64,000 nucleotides of DNA. It comes from a virus. The stretch spans positions 62,001 to 126,000 of the IMG/VR virus record IMGVR_UViG_3300034122_002202, one strand, 5' to 3'. The position numbers and the translations under genes were made by a program. Within the stretch, counting starts at the first letter, position 1; the number at the start of each line of letters is the position of its first letter. Of the stretch, positions 16,917 to 63,395 are shown piece after piece. Below the pieces are notes generated by a model. It was not told the origin of the DNA, did not search any database, and saw only the letters and a list, made by a program, of their open reading frames with translations.

Positions 16917-18557
16917 ATGGCAGAAACATGCGACTGTTGTTTAGATAAATGGTGTTTAATTGAAAACACTCCAGATTGCTTTGTTTGCTCTAGAAATTGC
17001 GAAAATAGAGTGGCAGAATTTGATACACAACAACTTTGTGAGTCAGCTAGACCTGCATACAATGTAAACTGTAAGGTAGAATTATTTCAAAATCCAGATT
17101 GTTGGGAATGTCAATTTTCTGCTAATGGTTCATATAGTGGTCCAGATAGATATGCTTTGTGTTTAGCAGATGCGGAAATGCTAAATCAATACATACCTGG
17201 GTGTTATGACTACTGTTATTTAATTAAATATTGTGGGTCTATAACACCAACAAGTACAACTTATAGTGGGTGTTGTTATCAATACTATTGTGATTCAAGT
17301 GGAATGTTAAATCCTACTGGAAATTATATTAATTGTCCTTTAGGAACCCCGATTGATTATTGTTACACTCATTGTTATGATGAAAATTCAACTTGTAATG
17401 GTGCAATGCCCTATTATTTTTCTGATAGCCCATGTCCAATATCCTTAACTCCAAGCCCAAGCCCTGCTACTACAACATGCCCACCATGCTATAAGTGCAG
17501 CCAAAATGCTGGAGCAGGAGAAACAATAGTAGATACATTTAGGGGTCCAAATGCATGTGTATCATGTTCTAGCGTTTTAGAATCCTATAATGTAAATTGT
17601 TCAACGACTACAACGACAACTCATAATCCATGTGCTTCACCTCCGTGTTGCCCTGATGAAACTGGAACTAGATGTGGAACTAATTGCTGTTGCTGCGGTG
17701 GTGGATTAGCACCAACAGGTCCAAATTGTGAATGTCTGCCATGTGGCAGTTCTAGAGAAGAGTGTGAGGGAACAAGTACTACCTCTACCTCTACGAGTAC
17801 TAGTACAAGTACCTCTACAAGCACAACAAATACAACATCTAATCCAATTTATTGTAGTCTTTACTCTTGTAGATGGCGAGCCGTTGGAAATCAAAGCATG
17901 GGTTATGAATGGGTTATATTTAATAATAGTTGTCCACCGCCATGTACATGTTCAGATATGCCAAATTATATGGGTAATCCAGAAGCTCTATATGCAGATA
18001 TCCCATGTTCTGGAATCAATGCAACTACAACACCTTCGCCAAATTGCATGTCATTACAATGTACATATTGGTCTGGAATGTTGGGTGTTGAATGGACATT
18101 ATTTAATTCTGGTTGTATGCCACCATGTGTATGTGGTCCAGCACCATCTGGCTTTCCAGTTGAACAATATCAATACTCATTAGCTCCATGTGTAGAAGGA
18201 ACTAGTACATCGACATCGACCTCTACCTCTACGAGTACCAGTACATCAACAAGCACTTCGACTTCGACAAGTACCAGTACATCGACTAGTACGACAGAAA
18301 CACCGACCACTACGAGTACCAGTACATCGACTAGTACGACAGAAACACCGACCAGTACGACAGAAACACCGACCAGTACGACAAATCCTAGCATGGGAAC
18401 ATGTACTCAATATACCTGTGATGGAGATGGCTTTTTGATATTTATTAATAGTGTTTCATCTACTGAGGCCAATTGTGGTAGCAGTTATTGTTATGGTAAT
18501 TGTTATGCAGACGAATCATGTAGAGGGCAAACAGCCTATCTATATTCACCCCCTTAA
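16917..18557 (+). CDS. Modular Cys-rich protein with Thr/Ser-rich linkers
   Basis: A 546-residue protein with dozens of cysteines and no signal peptide. Two module types repeat. Module A has C-x2-C-S near its start and Y-N-V-N-C at its end, and is also found at the end of the preceding protein. Module B reads C-x4-C, then an aromatic core with (E)W-x-(L/I)-F-N, then C-x-P-P-C-x-C, with clear copies at about nt 17853-18010 and 18045-18195 and a looser Cys-rich segment at about 18395-18545. Modules are separated by low-complexity (Thr-Ser)n linkers at about nt 17770-17835 and 18200-18385. This looks like a mucin-like extended surface fibre with disulfide- or metal-stabilised knobs. The Thr/Ser runs are candidate O-glycosylation sites. 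Confidence 0.65.
   Translation: MAETCDCCLDKWCLIENTPDCFVCSRNCENRVAEFDTQQLCESARPAYNVNCKVELFQNPDCWECQFSANGSYSGPDRYALCLADAEMLNQYIPGCYDYCYLIKYCGSITPTSTTYSGCCYQYYCDSSGMLNPTGNYINCPLGTPIDYCYTHCYDENSTCNGAMPYYFSDSPCPISLTPSPSPATTTCPPCYKCSQNAGAGETIVDTFRGPNACVSCSSVLESYNVNCSTTTTTTHNPCASPPCCPDETGTRCGTNCCCCGGGLAPTGPNCECLPCGSSREECEGTSTTSTSTSTSTSTSTSTTNTTSNPIYCSLYSCRWRAVGNQSMGYEWVIFNNSCPPPCTCSDMPNYMGNPEALYADIPCSGINATTTPSPNCMSLQCTYWSGMLGVEWTLFNSGCMPPCVCGPAPSGFPVEQYQYSLAPCVEGTSTSTSTSTSTSTSTSTSTSTSTSTSTSTSTTETPTTTSTSTSTSTTETPTSTTETPTSTTNPSMGTCTQYTCDGDGFLIFINSVSSTEANCGSSYCYGNCYADESCRGQTAYLYSPP
18271..18375 (+). repeat. In-frame tandem DNA repeat in Thr/Ser linker
   Basis: A 39-nt unit at 18271-18309 recurs exactly at 18316-18354. 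A 21-nt sub-unit coding S-T-T-E-T-P-T recurs at 18289-18309, 18334-18354 and 18355-18375. Because 21, 39 and the 45-nt offset are multiples of three, gain or loss of units keeps the frame and changes only linker length. Confidence 0.9.
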
Positions 18558-31285: not shown

Positions 31286-32911
31286 CTAAATTTGAACAAC
31301 AGTTTTAACTAAAAGAGAGTCACTTTTTTTGTCTCGTTCACCTTGAATCAAGACTGTATTACCCTCTTTTAACAAAGAAGCAAAATCTTTGTACGAGTTT
31401 GGAAAACAAATGACATCATCTATTTTTCCAGTAGCATCAGATATTGATAAAAATGCCATTCTAGATCCTGGTGTTTTTCCAGCCTTTGTAAGCACTTCTT
31501 TAGACCTTCTTATTTCAACACCAAAGACCATATAGCCACTCTTTCCATCTAAGTATTCTTTGCATGTAGTGTTAGAACTACTTGTGTCGCAAGAGTCTGT
31601 AGCATTATATGTTAAAGAAATTCCTAAAGAATCCTTTTCAATCCAACAAACCCAACTTGGAATATCTATTAAAGGAGAAGGGGGATTTTTAATCATAGAA
31701 GCAATGCTTTTTAAAACCTCAACTCTTTTGACTGAAGAACAACAGCCACCTTCTTTTTTTGTCTTTGCTGAGTTTAAAATCATATCTGGTATATTAGTGA
31801 TTTCAACATTAGCTTTTATCCACTCCTTTTCTTTGTCTGTTAATTCAGACCAAGCATTAAATTCAGCAAGAAGAACCTTCCTTTTGCTGCCAAATTTTCT
31901 TAGAGCGTTAACAGCAATTAGTTTTTCAATACTTGATTTTGGCATTTCATCAGAACATTTAACAACAAATTCTTCCCAAGAATCTATACTTTTGCCGTAA
32001 TTATTTATAGCTAGTTTGATTTTTTCAAATTGAGATTGCCCAATTCCTTTTACATCAGTAATACCAAACCAAATTGATATTCCGTCAGTGTAAAAGTTGC
32101 TATTTAGCATCATTATGTCTGGAGAATAGACAGCTATATTGAATTTTTTTGCATCTTCAATTAGTTCAGATATTTCAAGCTGACTATCTGCTTTGTCTTT
32201 TGCAAAATAAAGCCAGCTAGTAAAGAATTGAACTGGAAAATGGCTCTTTAAATAAGCAGTATCATATCCAATTAAGCCATAGCAGCAACTGTGACTGCGA
32301 TTAAACGAGTATTTTTGACTCTGTTCAATCCATCCAAATATTTCTTCAGCTTGATCTTCTGAGACTACTTCTATCTTTTTAGCACCCTCAATAAACATCG
32401 TCTTACATTTTGCCATTTCGCTAGATGATTTCTTTCCCATTGCCTTACGAAGCATGTCTGCTTCTTGCAAAGTAAATCCAGCGATAACTCTAGAAAGTTC
32501 CATTGCCTGTTCTTGAAAAACAAGTGACCCATAAGTTGATTTAAGTGCATCATCAACAATAGGATGATAGGATGAAACCTCTTCTTCTCCGTTTACAATA
32601 CGGCAATAATGTGCGGTCATACTAACGCCCTTATCATCAACAGAACGCAAAGCTCCCGGTCTGATAAGAGCACCTAAAGCAGTTAAATGATCAACAGTTT
32701 TTGGTCTTAATTTTTTAGACCATTGTTTTCCAAGATCTGATTCTAACTGGAAAATTCCTTTTGTATCGCCTCTAGAAAATATATCCCAAGCAATATCGCA
32801 AGAAGGAAGATTAGTTGGATCTACTTCCATTAGAGGCAAAGAATCTTTGGTTAAAGGATCTCCAATTATTGGAAAACTACAACCACATGAAAATTTGTAT
32901 GTTTTTGTCAT
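31286..32911 (-). CDS. dnaE: DNA polymerase III alpha, C-terminal half (fingers to OB fold)
   Basis: A 541-residue protein that continues the palm half encoded at 33818-35734. Residues after about 45 match DnaE fingers: S-R-G-D-T-K-G-I-F-Q-L-E-S, then R-P-G-A-L, then F-Q-E-Q-A-M-E-L-S and R-K-A-M-G-K-K and F-N-R-S-H-S. The last 100 residues fit an OB fold. The tau-binding end of cellular DnaE appears to be absent. A unique N-terminal extension of about 28 residues has F-S-C-G-C-S-F. No intein sequence is seen at either junction, so the two halves probably assemble non-covalently. Confidence 0.9.
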   Translation of the reverse strand: MTKTYKFSCGCSFPIIGDPLTKDSLPLMEVDPTNLPSCDIAWDIFSRGDTKGIFQLESDLGKQWSKKLRPKTVDHLTALGALIRPGALRSVDDKGVSMTAHYCRIVNGEEEVSSYHPIVDDALKSTYGSLVFQEQAMELSRVIAGFTLQEADMLRKAMGKKSSSEMAKCKTMFIEGAKKIEVVSEDQAEEIFGWIEQSQKYSFNRSHSCCYGLIGYDTAYLKSHFPVQFFTSWLYFAKDKADSQLEISELIEDAKKFNIAVYSPDIMMLNSNFYTDGISIWFGITDVKGIGQSQFEKIKLAINNYGKSIDSWEEFVVKCSDEMPKSSIEKLIAVNALRKFGSKRKVLLAEFNAWSELTDKEKEWIKANVEITNIPDMILNSAKTKKEGGCCSSVKRVEVLKSIASMIKNPPSPLIDIPSWVCWIEKDSLGISLTYNATDSCDTSSSNTTCKEYLDGKSGYMVFGVEIRRSKEVLTKAGKTPGSRMAFLSISDATGKIDDVICFPNSYKDFASLLKEGNTVLIQGERDKKSDSLLVKTVVQI

Positions 32912-32915
32912 ATTA

Positions 32916-33554
32916 TTATTTCTTAAATGAGTCTTTAAATTTAACTTTTGGGTATATTGATCTATGTAGTTTTAAGAAGTATGTGATTAAGTCTGCTGTT
33001 TGCTCAACATCAACTAGTGCATCATGAGCATTAGCCTTTGACATTCCAAAATGATCTCTAATAGTATCCATTTTCATATTAGGCATATCATCTGAATTTT
33101 CAAACCAAAGCAACATCATTTCATCTAAATCAAACATGCTTCTTTTATTGAAGAAAGATTGTGTGGCATTTGGTTGAACATATCCTAATTCAATACAGAC
33201 TCTTTGAAAAATCGGCATATCAAAAAATCTAATGTTTTTTCCTGCTGGAACAGGAGCTAATATATTGCTTTTACCAACCGCAAAAGTAGATATAAAATCA
33301 ATAAACCTACTCCAAACAACATCAAGATTGGGTGCAAGCTGAAGTTCTTCTCTTGTCTTTTTGTTTACTGCTAGTGCTGCTTCTTGCAAATTTCCAAAGT
33401 CTCTAGGTTTTACAAGACTATTAAAGACTGCACCTTCTATTGGTTGAAGAGTTTTTCTATTTATTGCCTTTGCAGCAATTTGAATAACTTCACAAGTATT
33501 TGTATCTAAAGATCCTGTTTCAAAATCAAAAACAATAATCGTATTACTCTTCAT
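32916..33554 (-). CDS. DnaQ-like 3'-5' exonuclease (proofreading)
   Basis: A 212-residue DEDD exonuclease. Exo I is I-V-F-D-F-E-T-G-S near residue 7, and Exo III-like is N-A-H-D-A-L-V-D-V-E near 180 (H-D-A-x-x-D). The family acts as the epsilon proofreading subunit of polymerase III. The gene sits precisely between the two halves of the polymerase alpha gene, overlapping the small upstream gene by 11 nt and ending 4 nt before the second half, so it is almost certainly the dedicated proofreader. Confidence 0.88.
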   Translation of the reverse strand: MKSNTIIVFDFETGSLDTNTCEVIQIAAKAINRKTLQPIEGAVFNSLVKPRDFGNLQEAALAVNKKTREELQLAPNLDVVWSRFIDFISTFAVGKSNILAPVPAGKNIRFFDMPIFQRVCIELGYVQPNATQSFFNKRSMFDLDEMMLLWFENSDDMPNMKMDTIRDHFGMSKANAHDALVDVEQTADLITYFLKLHRSIYPKVKFKDSFKK

Positions 33555-33825
33555 CGTCTTCTTCTCCTTTAATAGTTAGTTCTATTGATCCATCATCAAT
33601 TTGCTGTATTTTAAGTTCGACTTCTGCATCTTCTGCTGAATCTAAAAAATCCTTATCTATAAGTAACATACCTCCATTTTGAATTGTTATTGCCTTTAAT
33701 AGTTTGTTCGCCTGTTTAACAAGATCTTTCTTTAATGAAGAGCAATCAGACAAAGCATCTAACAAGGCTGTTTGCTGGACTACCAGTTTACTTATTATAG
33801 ATATTTCAAGAGAATTATCATTCAT
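33544..33825 (-). CDS. Small acidic-ended protein of polymerase cluster
   Basis: A 93-residue protein with an N-terminal helix and a beta-like C-terminus (V-E-L-K-I-Q-Q-I-D-D-G, then E-L-T-I-K-G), ending in a Glu/Asp run. It overlaps the polymerase N-half stop by 8 nt and the exonuclease start by 11 nt, and has a GGGGAAA site. It might bridge polymerase and exonuclease, which is inference from position only. No family was recognised. Confidence 0.6.
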   Translation of the reverse strand: MNDNSLEISIISKLVVQQTALLDALSDCSSLKKDLVKQANKLLKAITIQNGGMLLIDKDFLDSAEDAEVELKIQQIDDGSIELTIKGEEDDEE

Positions 33826-35734
33826 TTGGTTTCCCCTTTAAAATATTTATACAACCCATTATTTTATCTAAAACTGCAACTCCAAGTATATCAAACTTAA
33901 CCATTCCAATTGACTCTAAATCTGACATTTCCATACCAGCTATCATCTGTTTTGTCTTTTTATCAAATGTCATTGGACATACTTCTGATAAAGGAATATT
34001 GCTAATAACTATACCAGCAGCATGTTTGCCCTGACTTCTTTTTGTTCCTTCTAATCTTATTGCCTGTGCAAATTCCTTTGCTAATCTTCCAGAGTAAGTG
34101 CCATCTTTTTCAATCTTACAATACTCAGATAATCTATCAGGAATATTCTCTAACGCCCACCTTATTATTGAAGAATCTCCATCTTCATCTTTCATGTCTT
34201 GTAGTTGTTCAGATATCTCGGATTCATCTGGAATGTACTTAGTTACATTGTTGCTTTCTTCAAAAGAAAAACCATGAACTCTAAGCACATCTTTTAATGA
34301 TCCACGACCCTGCATACGACTAAATGTTATCATTTGGCAAACATTGCTGCTTCCATACTTTTGTTTTATATATTCTATTACTTTATCACGCTTTGTAATT
34401 GGAAAGTCACAGTCAATATCTGGCAAACTTATACGACCAGCAGAGTTTCTTCCTGCGTTATAGAATCTTTCAAATATAAGAGAATGTTTAATGGGGTCTA
34501 CTTCTGTTATACCCAAGAGGTAAGATATCATGCAGCCAGCACCAGAACCTCTACCTCTACCCATAATCCAACCCTTAGACTTTGCCCAATTGCAATAGTC
34601 TTGCACAATTAAAAAGTATCCAGCCAAACCAGAAGTATCTATAACTTCAAGTTCGTGCTTTATTCTCTCTGTGTATACCTTATATTCATCTGTTTTTGGC
34701 TTTATTGCAGAGAAACGCCTATTCCACCCATCTCTGCATAACTTTCTCAAATAAAGGATCTGAGAAAGACCATCTGGACAAGCAAAGTTTGGTATAGCTG
34801 GTTGGTTTATAAGCGAATAGTTTTCACATAAGCTATCAATTAAACAACAGTTGTTTATTTCATCTTCTTCGTGAAAGCTAGATATTTCTTCAATTGTTGG
34901 AAGATAATATTTATTTGACTTAAAGAATACAGAAAGCCCAAATTCTTCGTTGTTTTCTAATTTGCTATTTACATTCTTAAGAGTTGTTTCCATTGAAGAA
35001 CACAATAAGACCCTTTGATCAGGAGCATCCTCTGGCATAACATAATGAACATCTGGAGTTGCTATTTTTTTAATACCAGTTTTTGCACAAAGTTCTCTCA
35101 GGCATTCAGCAATAACCTTTGATGCAACTAAGTTAGAGCTATCAAACAATTGTATTTCTACAAAAAAATTATCTACCCCAAATATCTCAATGTATTTTGC
35201 ACAAATATTTCCAGCTTCATTTAGCCAGTTGGGTTTGAGCATTTCTTTTATTTCATCATAATCAGTTCTTTTATAAGCCTCTTTATGATCTTCAAATAAA
35301 GAATTAGCCAAATCTGTTCCTGGATGACCAGAAAATGCAATTAAATCACTGCACAGTCCTTTAAAGTCATTTAAGTTTAATCTTGGTTTATAATAAAAAT
35401 AATCTAAGGAATTGGCTAAAGAAGACAAATTAATTAAGTTTTTCCAGCCGTTTAGATTTTTAGCAATGACACACAGGTGAGTTAAGCTTGAGTTTTCTTT
35501 ATTGTGTTCTGTTGCTATATTCTTACAAATATAAAATTCACAACCAATGATTGGTTTTATACCTTGTGAAATACAAGCTTTAGAAAAAGAAATAGCACCA
35601 GATATAGTTCCATGATCAGTTATGGCACATGAAGTATATCCAAGTTCTTTGCATCTTTTTGCTAAAAGATCTGGCTTACTTAATCCGTCTAATAGGCTAT
35701 AATGGGTATGACAATGCAATGGTATCCAATTCAT
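33818..35734 (-). CDS. dnaE: DNA polymerase III alpha, N-terminal half (PHP + palm)
   Basis: A 638-residue protein. The PHP domain opens with P-L-H-C-H-T-H-Y-S-L-L-D-G and continues with A-I-T-D-H-G-T-I-S-G. The palm has G-R-G-R-G-S-G-A-G and the catalytic P-D-I-D-C-D-F at about residues 438-444, and the third catalytic Asp is in V-K-F-D-I-L-G near 615. It then ends 23 residues later, at the natural loop between palm and fingers. All three catalytic acids are thus in this half and the fingers are in the other. The start is the ATG at 35734 with AAGGA; a TTG two codons upstream is unlikely. Confidence 0.92.
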   Translation of the reverse strand: MNWIPLHCHTHYSLLDGLSKPDLLAKRCKELGYTSCAITDHGTISGAISFSKACISQGIKPIIGCEFYICKNIATEHNKENSSLTHLCVIAKNLNGWKNLINLSSLANSLDYFYYKPRLNLNDFKGLCSDLIAFSGHPGTDLANSLFEDHKEAYKRTDYDEIKEMLKPNWLNEAGNICAKYIEIFGVDNFFVEIQLFDSSNLVASKVIAECLRELCAKTGIKKIATPDVHYVMPEDAPDQRVLLCSSMETTLKNVNSKLENNEEFGLSVFFKSNKYYLPTIEEISSFHEEDEINNCCLIDSLCENYSLINQPAIPNFACPDGLSQILYLRKLCRDGWNRRFSAIKPKTDEYKVYTERIKHELEVIDTSGLAGYFLIVQDYCNWAKSKGWIMGRGRGSGAGCMISYLLGITEVDPIKHSLIFERFYNAGRNSAGRISLPDIDCDFPITKRDKVIEYIKQKYGSSNVCQMITFSRMQGRGSLKDVLRVHGFSFEESNNVTKYIPDESEISEQLQDMKDEDGDSSIIRWALENIPDRLSEYCKIEKDGTYSGRLAKEFAQAIRLEGTKRSQGKHAAGIVISNIPLSEVCPMTFDKKTKQMIAGMEMSDLESIGMVKFDILGVAVLDKIMGCINILKGKPNE

Positions 35735-35762
35735 ATTCAATCCTTAAATTTTTTTCAATTAA

Positions 35763-41719: not shown

Positions 41720-42077
41720 TGAATGGTAACTCTATAAGGTAAATGTTGTTTTTTTCACACCACTCTATTTTATTTTTATCATTTTTTTTGGAATGATAAA
41801 AGTTCAACATTGTATTATGAAAAAAGGGTATGAATTTGTAGTGTTGTTCCCCATGAACTTCAACTATTGTTTTCCTCAATGGCAACCAAAAGTCTGCTGC
41901 TAAACCTCCAGAACCAGGCAAAGTTGCTTCTTCTAAGATTCTGTCCATTGGATACATTGCTTTAAGTATAGATCTAGCCAATAAATGCAATGAAGATCTA
42001 GGTTTAGAATCATCATGATCTGGAACATTGCCAGAAGTCCAAGAGTAAGTTTTACCATCAAGACCTATTACTTTCAC
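41679..42077 (-). CDS. Small PD-(D/E)XK-like endonuclease next to recA
   Basis: A 132-residue protein starting at a GTG that overlaps the RecA stop as GTGA. The core has L-E-E-A-T-L-P-G, A-D-F-W-L-P and then I-V-E-V-H-G-E-Q-H-Y, which looks like an E ... D ... E-x-H/Q nuclease core similar to Vsr-type folds. The C-terminal helix I-E-W-C-E-K-N-N-I and strand I-Y-L-I-E-L-P also fit that fold. It probably cuts DNA during recombination or repair; substrate unknown. Confidence 0.6.
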   Translation of the reverse strand: MKVIGLDGKTYSWTSGNVPDHDDSKPRSSLHLLARSILKAMYPMDRILEEATLPGSGGLAADFWLPLRKTIVEVHGEQHYKFIPFFHNTMLNFYHSKKNDKNKIEWCEKNNIYLIELPFNESEQQWRKRIEG

Positions 42078-44095
42078 GATATAATAGCCTTAATTTCTTT
42101 TTCTAAAGCAGCAATCCACTTAGGATTTTCTAACAATAATTTATACATTTTTTCTGCACCTTGAGTTTTAACTAACTTAATAGTAGCATCATCCCAAGCT
42201 TCAGCTTTCAGTAGCTTTAAATGTCTTTCCATAAAATCTAATGTCATCCAAGCACCAGCTTTGTTTATAAGGCCAAGCTGACAACCTAAATTAATTGCTT
42301 CGTATGTATTATCTATTCCAATACCATATCTTATATAACTATCTACTTCCATTCCTGGTGACCCTAAAGAACAAGATTCAATTAGCCAATGCACTTGCTG
42401 GCCAATTTGCTTGTCTTTTCCTTCACCACCAACAGTCCAAGGCTTATCAGACTTTACCCTCATTTGAACATCTGCCTGATATTGCAATGTTCTAGAACCC
42501 TTTTCTGTATAACCACCATACATACCTTGAGATTGCGTTAGATGCATAATCGCCCAAACCATACAGTTTTGTACTGGCACTATATTGGCTGCTTGTCTAC
42601 AAAAACCAGCAAAAAGCTTATTACCAGCCCCTCTATTCTCATAGCCAATACCTTGATCCATTTCCTTCTCATCACATAGAGCAGAAACGCTATCTATAAT
42701 GATCAGGCTACCTGGATGGGTATTGATGGCTTTAAAGGCCAGATTTAGGTAGTCCTTTGCGGTAAGAATCTTATCTTGAGTAGATCTATAGATTGTCATT
42801 TTATTCAAATCTAAGCCAGCTATGCCCCTTAGATTCATAGGCTTTAATCTACCCTCTATGTTTAGATAATACACATGTCTAGAACCATTCTCTGGTTTTT
42901 GACATTGAGCAGCAAAAGATAGTGAGGTAAGCGTGTTATGAGTTACAACAAAATTGTCTGTTAAATACAAACCGCTTTTATCTCTAACTGAGATACAAAC
43001 ACTTTGTTCTCTTCTTGTTTTTACTACAGATATTATTTTTCTGGATAAATTGTTTTTTACATCTTTCTTTTTAAACTTCTCTTTTTTAAATTCAAACAAT
43101 TTTTTTTTATTTTTAATTATAATAGAACAATAATAAATAAAGTTGTCTTCATTGTTTTGATGTCTAGATATTAAACATATTCCACCTAAAGATTGAACTA
43201 ATAGCCTAAAGTCTTCAGCAAATTGCTTTGATGAAACTGTAACAATTGGAGTTTCTGTTTTTGTTATATGTGCAAAGCTGAGTATTCCTTGCAGTAAAGA
43301 CATTCTGTTTTCTACTGAATTATATAAATAATTTGGTGGTATAAATTTTTGAGATGTTTTTTTACCAAGAAGACCTAGCTCTCTTAACTCATCATGTATG
43401 TTTATTGTTAATTGATTTTCTTGTTTTGTGTAAGGTATCTTGGCTCCATTCATTAGATCGCAAATGCGATCACAAAGCTTTTCATCCTCAATCAATGCAG
43501 TAATTTTTTTATTAAAAAATCCAACAGTAAGCAAAGCACCAAATACAAATGGGTTTATTGGAATCTTAATCGGATTAAATTTTGCTGGTGCTGTTATTGG
43601 TATTGAATACTTAGCTTTAGTGCTTTTGCCTATATATATTTTGTTCATAAAATCTTTTAACATTACAGTTTTATAAGATTTTTGTTCTCTAGTTTTTATA
43701 TTCCATAAATGATTTTCGCCACACTCTGCTGTTGAACCATCTGAAAATGTTACTGTATAAACATCTTTTACCCCTTGTGGATAAATACCACAAACCATAG
43801 ATGTTGTTCCATTTGGGCAACAAATCATTTCTCCATATGTGATATCGCCAATTCTTTTTGGCCCATTAGCTGTATAAACTATGGCAGAGACAGGTTGTTC
43901 TTTCCCACTTTTTGGGTGTCCAGAGCATGTGATCCAAGAACCTTCTGGTATTCCACCATGCAAACCCAAGTTTAATGCTGGAGATAAAGGTATTACATGT
44001 TTTTCTTCATCCAATAAGTCGTTAGCGTTTATAGCAATACCTTTGCCATACTGTTTATCCACTTCTTTTAGGATTTTTTCAAGATTGTCACTCAT
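42074..44095 (-). CDS. recA: RecA recombinase precursor with intein
   Basis: A 673-residue precursor. Residues 1-65 and 388-673 join into a 351-residue RecA. The N-terminal core reads L-N-L-G-L-H-G-G-I-P-E-G-S, Walker A is G-H-P-K-S-G-K then T, and Walker B is L-I-I-I-D-S-V-S-A-L. Later come N-K-L-F-A-G-F-C-R-Q, W-A-I-M-H-L-T-Q-S-Q and Y-T-E-K-G-S-R-T. The intein sits between Lys and Thr of the P-loop, so the enzyme cannot bind ATP until splicing. It starts 8 nt inside the preceding gene and is followed by the nuclease-like gene. Confidence 0.9.
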   Translation of the reverse strand: MSDNLEKILKEVDKQYGKGIAINANDLLDEEKHVIPLSPALNLGLHGGIPEGSWITCSGHPKSGKEQPVSAIVYTANGPKRIGDITYGEMICCPNGTTSMVCGIYPQGVKDVYTVTFSDGSTAECGENHLWNIKTREQKSYKTVMLKDFMNKIYIGKSTKAKYSIPITAPAKFNPIKIPINPFVFGALLTVGFFNKKITALIEDEKLCDRICDLMNGAKIPYTKQENQLTINIHDELRELGLLGKKTSQKFIPPNYLYNSVENRMSLLQGILSFAHITKTETPIVTVSSKQFAEDFRLLVQSLGGICLISRHQNNEDNFIYYCSIIIKNKKKLFEFKKEKFKKKDVKNNLSRKIISVVKTRREQSVCISVRDKSGLYLTDNFVVTHNTLTSLSFAAQCQKPENGSRHVYYLNIEGRLKPMNLRGIAGLDLNKMTIYRSTQDKILTAKDYLNLAFKAINTHPGSLIIIDSVSALCDEKEMDQGIGYENRGAGNKLFAGFCRQAANIVPVQNCMVWAIMHLTQSQGMYGGYTEKGSRTLQYQADVQMRVKSDKPWTVGGEGKDKQIGQQVHWLIESCSLGSPGMEVDSYIRYGIGIDNTYEAINLGCQLGLINKAGAWMTLDFMERHLKLLKAEAWDDATIKLVKTQGAEKMYKLLLENPKWIAALEKEIKAIIS
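42935..43900 (-). mobile_element. Intein in RecA, probable class 3
   Basis: A 322-residue insertion from E66 to N387 of the precursor. It starts E-Q-P-V-S-A-I-V-Y-T, so lacks the usual N-terminal Cys/Ser nucleophile. The class 3 W-C-T triad is visible: Trp in E-N-H-L-W, Cys in S-V-C-I-S-V, and Thr in V-V-T-H-N, with Thr as first residue after the insert. The middle keeps two LAGLIDADG-like helices (G-A-L-L-T-V-G-F and L-L-Q-G-I-L-S-F), but the catalytic acid is missing from both. The endonuclease is probably dead while splicing is probably intact. Confidence 0.82.
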
Positions 44096-47450: not shown

Positions 47451-49742
47451 TCATAATAAACACGCACCGCCAGCACAAGCCAGTTCACCTTGTATATTTA
47501 TTGTGGATTTTTCTTCTAATACATTTAAATAGTTTACTTCTGAATAACTATCTATCAACTTATTCCATAAGTCTAAATTGTATGCGTCTTTAAGTGCATA
47601 TGTAGCATATTTTATGTTGGAACTAAAGCATTGATCAGAATATGTTTTAATTAATTTTTTCCACTCTTCTTGTTTTTCGTCTTTTGGTTCAAAATAACCA
47701 AGAACACAAGAACACGCATCCCATAAAGATTTAAAGTTATACTCAGAAAATTTTGGATAAATTTCATAAGCACTAGATGTAGCTTCAAAACCCCAATTTT
47801 TTATTTGTTCTTCAATTGAATAAACTGCTGTGAATGGAGCTTGATTATAATCTTTATCTCCAGTAGCAGCTATAAGTGATATTCCAGCAAGATCTGCACG
47901 ATGATCATAAATGTAGTCTTTTACCTTATCCCATTCATCATCTTGTACATGTATTGTATTAGATACATTATGATTTAATTCTTTTCTAACGCAAAGCTCT
48001 GGATTTTTACCAGAAACTACCCAATTTTTATAAGTTGAAACAACATTATCTAACATAGATATAGCGTTTATTTCTTCCTTAAGTACTGTTCCATATTGGG
48101 TTTGCACACAAAACCTTATACAATCATCTGTTTTATTAGATGACCATACAGATTCTTCACATGCTTGAGGATTAATAGTTTTAAAGTGTTGATAAGGAGA
48201 TTCAAGCTGGTTAGCTTGGACAATACGGAAATACCTCCTGCTATGATCTGGATGAATGCCTGATGTTGAACCTAATAAGGCAGCAGAATTGCCTTCTGGT
48301 TTGACACAAGTCGTTCTGGCAGCAGGGTTTATGTTTAAAATAGAGGCGTACTTTTTATTTGTATTCTTTACTATCTCAGCACCTTTCTGCTGAATTTCTG
48401 GATTTAAAAGTATTTTTGGATGGTGTTGCATACCATTAATTGAAACGCCCAATAATGCCTCTTTACGAGCGATAAGTTCTGTAATGTGACCCAAGTATGG
48501 GAAATTAGTAAAAGACGCTTGTAATGTACCAATAAACGCAGCAGCAGCACATCTTTCGTAGAAGTCTTCTTCTGAAGTTATTGTTTTTCCATTAATGGTT
48601 GATAAATTGCAGAATCCCCAACCAGAAAGACCGACCTCATCTTCTGGCATGTCATCTTTGCATGACTCTTTTGTTGTTATTGGTCCTTCATATAATGACA
48701 AAGCCTCGGCTAGTTCTGGACTGTTCTTCTTATAGAAGTGCCTAGTTATCCATGATATCTCACAGCATGGATTGCATAAGACATCGTAAAAATCAGCAAA
48801 GAAAAATCCTGGCTCACCAAACTCTTTTGTTGCTTTAAAAAGATTTTCAAACACTTCTTTAGAAGTATCTTTTCTATGGAGTAATGCAGAGATGTTTGCC
48901 CTAGCTCTTTGAGGATTAGTAAAATACCAATCACCAGTTTTTGCATTAATCATCAATTCATCATCAGCAGAAAATAAAGCTATGGTTGCAGATCTACGAA
49001 CACCGCCAGAGATAACAGCATCAGCAGCGTACATAACTATATCGAATGCATCTATTGTTCTTAATTCTGTTTGTTTATTAGCAAGACACCTATTAAGTAA
49101 ATTCCTAGTGTTTTCTAAAGCTTTTTCTAGTGGTTCATGGCCTGGAGCATTGCCTATGCCACAACCTAAAGGAGAACCTTTTTCTCTTATATCTACATAA
49201 CTAAATGCAACTTCAATATCTTTGTATTTTTCAAACCCTTTTATTGGAGTTTCAAAATATGAGGAAAGAAGAACGCCAAGAGCATCTGCCCAACCTTCAA
49301 TTGAATCTTCAACCCTGTGAACAAGATGTTGATAACAACATGTTTCTGGATCTAGTCTAGTGGATGAAAATTTTGGTAATAATTCGACATGGTGTTTTTG
49401 TACACTAAAGCCAGTTCCAGAGCCACAAAGCAGTAGGTAAAAACACTCTTGAAAAAACCTTAATCTATCGCAATAACTAGCAGAACAATTAAATATTCTT
49501 GCGTTATGCTTAAGAATTGGTTTTCCACCAAATTGTAATGCTCTTTGTGAACCCAATATTTTTTGATTTTTAATCATCCCATAATATTTTTCAATATCTT
49601 CATGCAAGGAAGGATTAACTTCAATCATCATATCTTTTATTCTATCTACGCTTTCTTCCCAAGTTTCTCTTCTTTTTTCAGACTCTATCCATCTAGCGTA
49701 CTTAGAAACAGCAGTATATTTTTGCAATTCTTTAATAGACAT
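47451..49742 (-). CDS. Class II (adenosylcobalamin-dependent) ribonucleoside-triphosphate reductase
   Basis: A 763-residue monomeric RTPR-type enzyme. N-terminal I-F-N-C-S-A-S, then G-S-G-T-G-F-S-V-Q, the active-site N-P-C-C-E-I (N-x-C-x-E) and a second C-N-L-S, and a C-terminal C-A-G-G-A-C shuttle pair are all present. It reduces NTPs to dNTPs with a B12 radical. Chosen start is the ATG at 49742 with GGAG 5 nt before; an ATG six codons upstream has no site. A cobalamin adenosyltransferase gene at 62883 can make its cofactor. A GC-richer leader lies upstream. Confidence 0.9.
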   Translation of the reverse strand: MSIKELQKYTAVSKYARWIESEKRRETWEESVDRIKDMMIEVNPSLHEDIEKYYGMIKNQKILGSQRALQFGGKPILKHNARIFNCSASYCDRLRFFQECFYLLLCGSGTGFSVQKHHVELLPKFSSTRLDPETCCYQHLVHRVEDSIEGWADALGVLLSSYFETPIKGFEKYKDIEVAFSYVDIREKGSPLGCGIGNAPGHEPLEKALENTRNLLNRCLANKQTELRTIDAFDIVMYAADAVISGGVRRSATIALFSADDELMINAKTGDWYFTNPQRARANISALLHRKDTSKEVFENLFKATKEFGEPGFFFADFYDVLCNPCCEISWITRHFYKKNSPELAEALSLYEGPITTKESCKDDMPEDEVGLSGWGFCNLSTINGKTITSEEDFYERCAAAAFIGTLQASFTNFPYLGHITELIARKEALLGVSINGMQHHPKILLNPEIQQKGAEIVKNTNKKYASILNINPAARTTCVKPEGNSAALLGSTSGIHPDHSRRYFRIVQANQLESPYQHFKTINPQACEESVWSSNKTDDCIRFCVQTQYGTVLKEEINAISMLDNVVSTYKNWVVSGKNPELCVRKELNHNVSNTIHVQDDEWDKVKDYIYDHRADLAGISLIAATGDKDYNQAPFTAVYSIEEQIKNWGFEATSSAYEIYPKFSEYNFKSLWDACSCVLGYFEPKDEKQEEWKKLIKTYSDQCFSSNIKYATYALKDAYNLDLWNKLIDSYSEVNYLNVLEEKSTINIQGELACAGGACLL

Positions 49743-49888
49743 AAAAACTCCATCTTCCATGCTGACCGCAAGGATAAGCAGAACTCTAAAGGTATGTAAT
49801 ACTGGCGATTACCAGCGGATATAAATACACCCACAACAATGATAAGACAGAAGAGATTCTTACTTATTTTTTTTGATATGACAATAGT
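49743..49888 (-). promoter_or_regulatory. GC-richer leader of the RNR gene
   Basis: This 146-nt gap is clearly less AT-rich (about 40% GC by count at 49741-49860) than its surroundings. On the minus strand, CTGG/CCAG (49802-49805 with 49812-49815) form a hairpin. It is enclosed by a 5-bp stem with one G-U pair (49791-49795 with 49827-49831), the wobble favouring a leftward transcript. No match to the cobalamin riboswitch core was found by eye. It may hold the RNR promoter and leader. Confidence 0.3.
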
Positions 49889-57169: not shown

Positions 57170-57197
57170 TGTGTCCTCCTTTTGTTCCTAATTCATA

Positions 57198-57392
57198 CTA
57201 CAGAAAACGATTGTCTTTATCAATAACATTTGATCTTGTTTTTTCATAAATTACAATTTTTGTATATTCGTTTTCTTCTAAAAAGGCAGCTTTTTTCTCT
57301 GCTCTTTGCCAATATTTTTCTTCATACTCAGCTATTTTAATCCTATTCTTTCCTCCTGGAACTACTCCCCAAACCTCAAAGTAAGTTGTCAT
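57198..57392 (-). CDS. Small protein, unknown
   Basis: Sixty-four residues, charged, with K-Y-W-Q-R-A-E-K-K-A-A-F-L-E-E helix and I-V-I-Y-E-K strand. A TGGAG site lies 8 nt before the ATG. No family recognised. Confidence 0.5.
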   Translation of the reverse strand: MTTYFEVWGVVPGGKNRIKIAEYEEKYWQRAEKKAAFLEENEYTKIVIYEKTRSNVIDKDNRFL

Positions 57393-57557
57393 GGGAAATC
57401 TCCAAAGAGAAATATTAACCCATACTTAAATACCCCTTAATCCGTAGTATCAACACACTTACAGTTATTGTTATGAATTAAATCCGCTAATATGTAGCTT
57501 AATGTTAAATACATTAACAAAAATGAAAATATTATTATGATTATATTCCGTACAGCT

Positions 57558-60595: not shown

Positions 60596-60874
60596 ATGAA
60601 AAATAGAATAAAGGAAAGTCAACAAACACTCAAGGCTTATTTTAAAGGCAAAATTGATTTTCTCAATTTAAATACTGTAAATTTTAATAAGTCTGAATTT
60701 ATTTTATTTAAAAAGATAATAAGAAAGGCTTATTCAACTGGGTATATATCTGAATCTGAATTTATGGAAATAACCCTAATAGTTGGAAAAGATGTTGGTC
60801 ACTTAAACTCATTTGGCTTTATAGAGAAGAGCGTAGTTCAAATATTTTGCGACATAGCTAGTGAGGAACTATAG
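60596..60874 (+). CDS. Small helical protein on + strand, unknown
   Basis: Ninety-two residues, basic N-terminus and helices, with AGAGG 5 nt before the ATG. It ends 17 nt inside the convergent cupin gene. Only 25 nt separate it from the divergent GNAT gene, leaving no room for two promoters between them. Function unknown. Confidence 0.5.
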   Translation: MKNRIKESQQTLKAYFKGKIDFLNLNTVNFNKSEFILFKKIIRKAYSTGYISESEFMEITLIVGKDVGHLNSFGFIEKSVVQIFCDIASEEL

Positions 60875-61211
60875 TTTTGTCAAATTGATCATCAAAGCTG
60901 GATGACTCAAGTAATACACTCTCTTTCATGGCTGTTATCATATGTCTTTGATTCGCCCCTACAAAAATACAATCACCTTGTTTTAAAAGCTCTATATGGG
61001 CCAAATTTAAGTCATCGCCATCAGATATGTGCATCGACACCTCTCCAGAGAATATGTAAAAATAAGACTCTTTTTGAGCATGATAGTGCCAACTAGTTTG
61101 TTTAAAAATATCCATCTTTAATATTTTCAAGCATATCTCTTTAAAAGATTCGTTTACTACTGTTTCTTCACTGCCCCACTTTTTAAGTATTATGTCTGCT
61201 TTAAACTTCAT
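60858..61211 (-). CDS. Cupin-fold protein, possible sugar-phosphate isomerase type
   Basis: Codes for 117 residues from the ATG at 61211 (AAGGGG site about 8 nt upstream). The cupin core is W-H-Y-H-A-Q-K-E-S-Y-F-Y-I-F-S-G-E-V (metal-binding H-x-H-x6-E) then L-L-K-Q-G-D-C-I-F-V and N-Q-R-H. It is similar in outline to type II mannose-6-phosphate isomerase domains, which would suit sugar-nucleotide synthesis. The leader carries a long structured region. Confidence 0.75.
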   Translation of the reverse strand: MKFKADIILKKWGSEETVVNESFKEICLKILKMDIFKQTSWHYHAQKESYFYIFSGEVSMHISDGDDLNLAHIELLKQGDCIFVGANQRHMITAMKESVLLESSSFDDQFDKTIVPH

Positions 61212-61232
61212 TACAAATACCCCTTCTTTACC

Positions 61233-61250
61233 CTGATAGCATAGCATCAG
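61233..61250 (-). promoter_or_regulatory. Short hairpin before cupin ribosome binding site
   Basis: CTGAT at 61233-61237 pairs with ATCAG at 61246-61250 across an 8-base loop, a few bases upstream of the AAGGGG site on the minus strand. It could influence translation of the cupin gene. It is only 5 bp and may be chance. Confidence 0.3.
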
Positions 61251-61298
61251 AGTTCTTTTGTTTACTTTCAGTGTGCTATAAACTCTACCAAACAAGAC

Positions 61299-61507
61299 AT
61301 CAATTAAGAATTTTTGTGCTTTGCTCTATCAGGTCTAAGCGGAGAAGGGGTCACTCCGATCTTAGTGTTGATTCTTAATTAAACTTTTCGTGCCACCTGT
61401 TAAGAGTTTGGCTACTCTATGGCAGTCTTTGGGTCCATACCCTGGTGTTATGATTACTTCGGGGAAAGAACTGCGAAAGAACCGTTATTGAATTTGATAA
61501 CGCAGTT
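61299..61507. ncRNA. Candidate structured RNA element, strand unresolved
   Basis: A gap of about 300 bases without a gene, between the cupin gene and a small gene, with 38-45% GC per 60 bases against much lower values nearby. Perfect nested stems are present. AATTAAGAAT (61302-61311) pairs with 61371-61380. Inside, CTAAG-CGGAG (61335-61344) pairs with CTCCG (61354-61358) and CTTAG (61361-61365). TGCCA/TGGCA (61391-61395, 61420-61424) encloses AGAGT/ACTCT (61403-61407, 61414-61418). GGGT/ACCC is at 61431-61442. AACTGC/GCAGTT (61469-61474, 61502-61507) encloses GTTAT/ATAAC (61484-61488, 61497-61501). I could not match it to tRNA, tmRNA, RNase P, 6S or a known riboswitch. Confidence 0.55.
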
Positions 61508-61508
61508 A

Positions 61509-61522
61509 CTTATGATCATAAG
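61509..61522. promoter_or_regulatory. 14-bp perfect palindrome
   Basis: CTTATGATCATAAG is a perfect palindrome at the edge of the structured region and across the stop codon of the 61516-61788 gene. It could be a protein-binding site or a weak terminator stem. No U run follows on either strand. Confidence 0.35.
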
Positions 61523-61788
61523 CTTGTTATATAGCTGTCTACATTCTCCATACGCAATGCAAACATATAGCTACCATTGCCATTTTGCAATACAAAATCC
61601 TTAACTTTTTTACTATTCTTAATCTTTCTTTTGTCACCTATACAGACAACCTTCTCTAATAATTCAATTGCTTGTTTATCAGATGAGGCACAAAGAATTA
61701 TTGATATGCAACCATCTTTTGAAATTTTAGCTTTATATTTATTTTTATTTTTAAGAATTGTTATTTTTACATGATATGTTTTAATCAT
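61516..61788 (-). CDS. Small protein, unknown
   Basis: Ninety residues, Lys-rich, with strands Y-H-V-K-I-T-I-L-K and I-S-I-I-L-C-A-S and a central helix S-D-K-Q-A-I-E-L-L-E-K-V. The fold could be a small alpha/beta domain. It is divergent from the HAD gene with 91 bases between starts. Function unknown. Confidence 0.5.
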   Translation of the reverse strand: MIKTYHVKITILKNKNKYKAKISKDGCISIILCASSDKQAIELLEKVVCIGDKRKIKNSKKVKDFVLQNGNGSYMFALRMENVDSYITSL

Positions 61789-62272: not shown

Positions 62273-62439
62273 TAAAAGACATAGACTATTATATAGATGA
62301 AAACAAACAAATTGTTTTGACTGAATATTTTTTAAAAAAAAGAGGTCGTTGTTGCAAAAAAGATTGCAAGCATTGCCCTTACGGATTTCAAAAAGAAAAA
62401 TCAAGCGACAATACTGGCAATATCAAACCTTCTAGTTAA
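62269..62439 (+). CDS. DUF5522-like small Cys-rich protein
   Basis: Fifty-six residues starting M-I-K-D-I-D-Y-Y-I-D-E-N-K. The core L-T-E-Y-F-L-K-K-R-G-R-C-C and C-K-H-C-P-Y-G-F match a small family with a C-C-x3-C-x2-C-P-Y-G-F ending that I know as DUF5522. The four cysteines suggest a metal site. Its ATG overlaps the HAD stop as ATGA. Its end overlaps the convergent gene by 39 nt. Confidence 0.75.
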   Translation: MIKDIDYYIDENKQIVLTEYFLKKRGRCCKKDCKHCPYGFQKEKSSDNTGNIKPSS

Positions 62440-62589
62440 ACTATCTACGCCAAACATATCCATATATACATCTCTTATTTCTTCCATATAAACTCTGTTA
62501 AATTTTATGCCAACACTTTTTGACATTCTAATAGATGCCAATATCATTATTCTTCTAGCTTTTTTTTGTCTGTTCTTTTTAATTTTCAT
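62401..62589 (-). CDS. Small basic protein, unknown
   Basis: Sixty-two residues, strongly basic at the N-terminus (M-K-I-K-K-N-R-Q-K-K-A-R-R), then helical. AGGA lies 5-6 nt before the ATG, and it follows the 62597 gene by 7 nt. Overlap of 39 nt with the convergent DUF5522-like gene makes it less certain. Confidence 0.4.
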   Translation of the reverse strand: MKIKKNRQKKARRIMILASIRMSKSVGIKFNRVYMEEIRDVYMDMFGVDSLTRRFDIASIVA

Positions 62590-62596
62590 GTTGTTC

Positions 62597-62809
62597 CTAT
62601 TCTACATTTAGATTTATTTGTGTTGTTTCAATAACTTCTAAATTTAAATCGCTGTTTGAAATAAATTGTTTTGTTTTTTCTAATACTAAATTTGCATGTT
62701 CTTCATTATAACAATCAAAAACATAAGCATCTTTCTTTAATTTTGTTAATCCAACCTCTGGTTGTCTGCAAAAAAATTCTCCATAGATGTTTCTAATTAT
62801 TATTTTCAT
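62597..62809 (-). CDS. Small protein, unknown
   Basis: Seventy residues with A-Y-V-F-D-C-Y-N-E-E-H-A-N-L-V near the centre and strands at both ends. AAGGGGG lies 8 nt before the ATG. It is divergent from the adenosyltransferase gene, with a 73-base gap containing TATAAT-like sequence on the + strand. Confidence 0.5.
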   Translation of the reverse strand: MKIIIRNIYGEFFCRQPEVGLTKLKKDAYVFDCYNEEHANLVLEKTKQFISNSDLNLEVIETTQINLNVE

Positions 62810-62882
62810 ATTGATTCCCCCTTATGGTTTAGTAATATATAATAGTATTCGCTTTAACAACCAAAATATTCAAGAAATTAAA

Positions 62883-63395
62883 ATGAAAATATATACAAAA
62901 ACTGGAGATGATGGAACTACACTTTTACCAAAGACAGGTAGAGTTCCTAAAACCAATCCGAATATACAACTTCTTGGCAGTATTGATGAGCTTAATGCTT
63001 GGATTGGATTTGTTAATCAAAAGTACATTTTAGAATTAAAAGTTCATGAAGTGTACGAATTTATAATAGAAATACAGAATCTTCTTTTTGAAGTTGGTGC
63101 AGAAGTGGCTACTGGAAAAGAAAGAATAAAAGAAGAACACATTAAAAAAACAGAAGACATTATTGATTTGATGACTAAAAGTTTGAAGCCATTAAAGAAT
63201 TTTATAATTCCATTCAATCATTGTGAAATTCATTTGGCTAGAGCAGTATGTAGAAGAGTTGAAATTGATTTAGTAAGGCTTATGGAAGCACATCAAGACT
63301 TTAAAAACATTGTTGTATTTATAAATAGACTTAGTGATTTTTTATTTACTTTGGCTAGATTGCTTGGTCCAGAAGAAAAGATATGGCATGGTTAA
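62883..63395 (+). CDS. Cob(I)alamin adenosyltransferase (PduO type)
   Basis: Codes for 170 residues from the ATG at 62883, giving the family start M-K-I-Y-T-K-T-G-D-D-G-T-T; an upstream in-frame Met would add a hydrophobic stretch with no family match. The ATP and cobalamin sites G-S-I-D-E-L-N-A-W-I-G and A-R-A-V-C-R-R-V-E are present, then I-N-R-L-S-D-F-L-F-T-L-A-R. It converts cob(I)alamin and ATP to adenosylcobalamin, the cofactor of the class II RNR in this window. Confidence 0.9.
   Translation: MKIYTKTGDDGTTLLPKTGRVPKTNPNIQLLGSIDELNAWIGFVNQKYILELKVHEVYEFIIEIQNLLFEVGAEVATGKERIKEEHIKKTEDIIDLMTKSLKPLKNFIIPFNHCEIHLARAVCRRVEIDLVRLMEAHQDFKNIVVFINRLSDFLFTLARLLGPEEKIWHG

Follow-up and report, generated by a model that had tools for sequence, protein, structure and literature searches.

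A covariation-supported, pseudoknotted RNA element linked to a small basic-protein gene in one phage clade

A structured RNA of about 303 nt is encoded on the minus strand of the window, i.e., the whole 64-kb stretch of viral DNA that was analysed. According to covariance-model matches and alignments A3, A4, and A7, it extends from its 5′ end at position 61521 to position 61219, and it lies between two genes of the same strand, gene90 (61516-61788) and a cupin gene with its ATG at 61211. Its architecture would comprise a 5′ domain of helices P1 to P4, the core of which is near-invariant, and a pseudoknotted 3′ domain, in which P5, P6, and PK1 are joined by the competing helices P7 and P10. In the reading that we consider probable, it represents a new family of structured phage RNAs, which would derive from the gene90 transcript, act as an RNA in its own right, probably with a protein bound to it, switch between P7 and P10, and gate the cupin gene where that gene is present. 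Behind this reading of an independent RNA, probably with a protein partner, we rank, in descending order, a cis-acting element of the cupin gene, a 3′-UTR element of gene90, a diverged member of a known RNA family, and a DNA-level element.

An earlier note, made from a single sequence, had described a GC-rich, multi-hairpin element at 61299-61522. The GC content is indeed markedly raised there (39.7% as against a mean of 29.4% over 56-64 kb), corresponding to the 98th percentile locally and to the 94th across the whole window, and the stems described are present, among them the 10-bp outer stem (61302-61311 with 61371-61380) and the nested bulged hairpin, which correspond to P5 and P6. The interval covers a real element but is too short, since the 3′-terminal 80 nt or so, which contain two long-range partner strands, are cut off. 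It is not the only gap without a gene, as had been stated, since a cutoff of 80 amino acids leaves two others, 57170-57557 and 62273-62786, both containing shorter ORFs. The 14-bp palindrome at 61509-61522 is present but not special, there being five palindromic 14-mers per 64 kb; it is lost in homologues, in which the same bases are still paired, as helix P1. The folding energy of the region is unremarkable (z-scores of -0.95 for the minus and -2.10 for the plus strand), a measure that is uninformative here because pseudoknots are omitted from the computation. With folding energy and palindromes of the single sequence being unexceptional, it is the homologues that decide the matter, and the signal beyond chance is covariation across them, not folding energy.

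Homologues were collected from IMG/VR by way of relatives of the cupin gene and of gene90, two exact 20-mers, a gene90 family search (27 loci), and two degenerate patterns; the latter, taken from opposite halves of the element, retrieved essentially identical sets of contigs. The resulting 17 distinct complete element sequences, from approximately 30 contigs, fall into six broad sequence types (window-like, L031, L038, L052, L032, and L056-L064/L082), with lengths of 299-307 nt in seven representatives. The pattern searches demand exact matches to conserved patterns, so that more diverged copies could exist. Four further viral pattern matches (L039, L080, L084, and L093) were rejected after inspection, and 11 matches of the core pattern in bacterial and archaeal genomes were all found to be due to chance. 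Searches of named phage genomes, both by DNA and by the gene90 protein, gave no relatives but only short chance matches. Of the two covariance models, R1 matches 61386-61521 and R2 matches 61219-61388 in the window; R2 also recovers the 3′ domains of the L032 and L056 types, which had been left out when it was built, with E-values of about 2e-16 to 4e-18. When the whole IMG/VR record was searched, a single copy was found; weak model matches (E 0.6 and 1) were taken as chance.

In the 5′ domain, helix P1 (7 bp, 61515-61521 with 61448-61454) overlaps the gene90 stop codon with its 5′ strand and carries compensatory changes in four of its seven pairs, the strands reading UUAUGAU/AUCAUAA, UUGUGGU/ACCACAA, UUGUGGA/UCCACAA, UUGUGGC/GUCACAA, and AUGUGAU/AUCACAU, depending on the type. 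Helix P2 (7 bp, AACUGCG/CGCAGUU, 61501-61507 with 61469-61475) encloses a large conserved loop and shows a compensatory change from C-G to G-C in L031; an apparent inner stem in its loop (GUUAU/AUAAC) is lost in other types. All four pairs of hairpin P3 (61431-61442, GGGU-AUGG-ACCC) covary, with strands GGGU/ACCC, GAAC/GUUC, GGAU/AUCC, UGGC/GCCA, and GGGG/CCCC. Hairpin P4/P4a (61391-61424), predicted by RNAalifold, contains the conserved loop AGCCAA, followed by a conserved CGAAA; being near-invariant in 17 of 17 sequences, it stands outside the covariation counts. Altogether, nine pairs of this domain change on both sides yet stay paired (17 cells; all copies belong to one phage clade, so that neither these counts and cells nor those of the 3′ domain are independent events). 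None of 500 shuffles scored as high, and slid controls reached at most 3 cells. P1, P2, P3, P4, and P4a were returned by RNAalifold on the minus strand unprompted.

The 3′ domain is built around helix P5 (12 bp, 61371-61382 with 61300-61311), an extension of the 10-bp outer stem mentioned above, in which 8 of 12 pairs have changed on both sides. Enclosed by it is hairpin P6 (61335-61365), with five pairs changed on both sides and a 9-nt loop bearing the strand ACCCCUU (61345-61351), which forms the 7-bp pseudoknot PK1 with the 3′ end of the element (AAGGGGU, 61219-61225). Covariation in PK1 concerns one pair, across several types; it is C-G in the cupin-bearing types and A-U in the L032, L038, and L056 types (ACCACUU/AAGUGG). 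The long-range helix P7 (8 bp), formed by CCUGAUAG at 61326-61333 and CUAUCAGG at 61232-61239, crosses P5 and is conserved, its support being one compensatory change from U-A to A-U in L032. A further helix suggested by the window (AGAGUU/AACUCU) was discarded, the L032 and L056 types not retaining it. For the domain as a whole, 15 pairs are altered in both partners with pairing retained (34 cells); again none of 500 shuffles was as high, and slid controls gave 4 cells at most. The alignment had been fitted to the P5/P6 structure and is thus biased towards these two helices, but a direct table of the strands shows the same changes. RNAalifold returned PK1 and P7 rather than P5, as is expected of a program that cannot draw crossing helices.

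The P7 strand CUAUCAGG is also predicted to form, in every type, a local hairpin, P10 (61230-61253), so that P7 and P10 are mutually exclusive. P10 is calculated at -9 to -12 kcal/mol and the P7 duplex at -7 to -10, and in L032 the altered 3′ strand is fitted by both 5′ partners. On paper, P5, P6, and PK1 are compatible with either helix. The competition between P7 and P10 may render the RNA bistable, perhaps allowing it to switch from one state to the other.

Three observations together identify the minus strand as the RNA strand, namely the G.U pairs found inside P1 and P5 when this strand is read, the orientation of the genes, and the way in which P1 overlaps gene90; A.C cells, which on the plus strand would read as G.U, mostly occupy terminal positions of P6 and PK1. 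A DNA-level element composed of cruciforms, such as a replication origin or a recombination or packaging site, might account for the inverted repeats, the raised GC content, and the 14-bp palindrome. The G.U pairs confined to one strand, the long-range crossing pairings, the conserved loops, and the loss of the palindrome in homologues argue against it so strongly that we give it hardly any weight.

No coding gene is conserved over the interval, with stop codons interrupting all six frames in seven of seven representatives examined. Of the 4227 families of Rfam 15, none matched the window at the gathering score, and up to an E-value of 10 the window and L032, L052, and L056 gave irrelevant subthreshold matches only. 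With covariation present in both domains of the homologues, and neither an Rfam match nor a conserved frame, the suggestion of the earlier note, which had proposed an Rfam search and a covariation analysis, of a structured RNA that fits no known family is supported. Very improbable, in our opinion, is a divergent member of a known large class, i.e., a group I intron, RNase P, a cobalamin riboswitch, GOLLD, or ROOL. The crossing of P5 and P7 is vaguely reminiscent of P3/P7 of group I introns, and the phage possesses an apparently adenosylcobalamin-dependent reductase together with a cobalamin adenosyltransferase. Against such an assignment stand the Rfam results; moreover, no group I intron model matched, no gene90 locus of an intron-less type was seen among the complete loci, and neither tRNA nor tmRNA was detected by ARAGORN in the window.

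Two kinds of RNA come closest, namely large phage RNAs (GOLLD and ROOL) and structured 3′-UTR elements (for example, the L17 downstream element); by the tests made, the present element belongs to neither. GOLLD and ROOL are large, ornate, pseudoknotted noncoding phage RNAs of unknown function that were discovered by covariation; many GOLLD RNAs exceed 800 nt, and both are often located near tRNA islands (PMC12286853). The element resembles them in being a large, pseudoknotted phage RNA found by covariation but differs in matching no family model, in its size of about 303 nt, and in residing in a window without tRNAs. The manA and wcaG motifs of cyanophages are structured phage RNAs near metabolic genes that are thought to regulate the downstream gene (PMC2864571). 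The element is likewise phage-borne, structured, and near a metabolic gene, but it has no Rfam match, and the supposed regulation of a downstream gene sets those motifs apart.

The most constant neighbour of the element is gene90, which is directly upstream of every copy found. Every complete locus examined has the order gene90, element, optional cupin gene, orf92 on the opposite strand, and acetyltransferase gene; the order of gene90 and element is invariant, cupin and orf92 are variable, and both are missing from the L038 contig. The element is present at every complete gene90 locus, and the 5′ strand of P1 includes or just precedes the gene90 stop codon in all types. The gene90 product (90 amino acids, pI 9.7; range 9.2 to 9.7) is basic, which is compatible with RNA binding and says no more. 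Comparison of it with Pfam, PHROG, and NCBIfam gave no family above cutoff, and comparison with the PDB gave no match; its PADLOC matches are weak and not meaningful, and AlphaFold models were poor (pLDDT 55 and 43), too low for a fold search. An RNA-binding fold is not recognisable in gene90, and no terminator was recognised around the element; the former counts against the favoured reading and the latter against an independent transcript as part of it.

A fixed position right behind gene90, the stop codon of which P1 overlaps or adjoins, would also be expected of a 3′-UTR element serving gene90 only, by exonuclease protection or autoregulation by the gene90 protein. There is precedent in the L17 downstream element, a structured bacterial 3′-UTR RNA that immediately follows one protein gene and frequently has no further gene directly behind it (PMC2864571). 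The present element shares this arrangement of directly following one protein gene, often with nothing right downstream; it differs in sequence and in the associated gene, is pseudoknotted, and is seen in phage contigs only. We regard such a role as unlikely, given that the element is far more conserved than gene90 itself. Between the window and L031, nucleotide identity is 94% for the element, 83% for cupin, and 58% for gene90, and between the window and L008 it is 97%, 90%, and 63%, respectively. An elaborate, near-invariant core would, furthermore, be superfluous for simple stabilisation.

The second neighbour, the cupin gene (60858-61211, minus strand, 117 amino acids), is identified by a Cupin_2 match (E 4.8e-6) just under the curated cutoff. 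Its likely Shine-Dalgarno sequence, AGAAGGGG at 61220-61227, overlaps PK1, and in the window, L031, and L052 types this 3′ strand of the pseudoknot lies 8 nt before the ATG. The strand contains AAGGGG where the cupin gene is present and AAGUGG where it is absent, the P6 loop compensating for the difference; between 61220-61227 and 61345-61351, the compensated C-G/A-U exchange thus creates or removes a Shine-Dalgarno-like GGGG, tracking the presence of the cupin gene. In the pseudoknot riboswitches preQ1 and SAM-II, the Shine-Dalgarno sequence is sequestered. A cis-acting, riboswitch-like 5′ leader of the cupin gene, in which the pseudoknot hides this sequence until a signal in the 5′ domain releases it, would accord with the position of PK1, with its covarying difference, and with P7 and P10 as alternative, near-isoenergetic pairings. 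For alternative helices of the kind by which leaders and riboswitches expose or hide a ribosome-binding site, P7 and P10, with their shared strand, and PK1, which covers the likely Shine-Dalgarno sequence, would be candidates. In these predicted alternative helices, and in the loop-to-3′-end pseudoknot over the likely ribosome-binding site of cupin-bearing phages, the element is similar to preQ1 and SAM-II.

What is lacking, however, is a single gene or pathway that constantly follows the element. In three of the six types (L032, L038, and L056-L064/L082), no cupin gene follows, the 3′ end adjoining the convergent orf92 or noncoding sequence, and the fold is retained nevertheless; orf92 itself (60596-60874, plus strand) is a small gene conserved in most types. 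Between L032 and L056, both cupin-less, compensatory differences occur in P3, P5, and P6, from which it follows that the constraint on the element is independent of the cupin gene. This retention, as well as the lack of a known ligand or a matching aptamer family, distinguishes the element from preQ1 and SAM-II. A cupin leader, as envisaged by the earlier note, therefore cannot be the general, conserved role, and we rate it rather doubtful as an explanation of the element, albeit a secondary leader function is plausible in cupin-bearing phages. The location of the likely Shine-Dalgarno sequence within a pseudoknot strand suggests that this strand was recruited secondarily as the cupin ribosome-binding site.

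In the favoured reading of an independent RNA, the element would most likely be transcribed together with gene90 as a fixed unit. Because P1 uses or abuts the gene90 stop codon, it would fold only after the terminating ribosome has departed. The structured RNA would then either be released from the gene90 mRNA by cleavage or remain as its 3′ terminus, and might act in trans or as a ribonucleoprotein; a protein partner is probable, and the basic product of gene90 would be the obvious candidate. The RNA would alternate between the P7 and P10 states, and in cupin-bearing phages, with the PK1 strand as the likely ribosome-binding site, the fold would have the further role of gating translation of the cupin gene. 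A bolder version is a wholly new kind of bistable, pseudoknotted RNA, the folding of which is gated by upstream translation termination, which acts in trans or as a ribonucleoprotein with the basic protein, and which, in some of the lineages, was recruited via its pseudoknot to govern the gene next to it; we put it forward tentatively, as possible rather than probable.

Few large phage RNAs are known, and a covariation-supported family of about 300 nt now joins them. Its set of traits is unusual: it is fixed in place 3′ of one small gene and exceeds this gene in conservation, its helices cross, and one of its strands has two possible pairing partners. The compensated pseudoknot change, which goes with the presence or absence of the cupin gene, constitutes a natural experiment on how a gene comes under the control of an existing RNA. 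The pairings yield clear mutational predictions, which can be tested with reporters, without the phage.

Several observations were made elsewhere in the window. An ORF at 47451-49760 (minus strand) is a ribonucleotide reductase with its best match to the adenosylcobalamin-dependent TIGR02505 (166 bits, below the curated cutoff), and 62787-63395 (plus strand) codes for a protein that is clearly a cobalamin adenosyltransferase (Pfam PF01923, E 6.6e-46); the two together suggest that the phage supplies activation of the B12 cofactor. DNA polymerase III alpha (31286-35740, minus strand) is apparently split into ORFs at 33818-35740 and 31286-32911, with an exonuclease-like ORF at 32916-33554 between them. 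A RecA-like recombinase ORF of 673 amino acids at 42074-44095 (minus strand) contains an apparent intein-like insertion. Finally, a cysteine-rich ORF of unusual composition, with long Thr/Ser repeats (TSTSTS...), adjoins the structural genes at 16917-18557 (plus strand).
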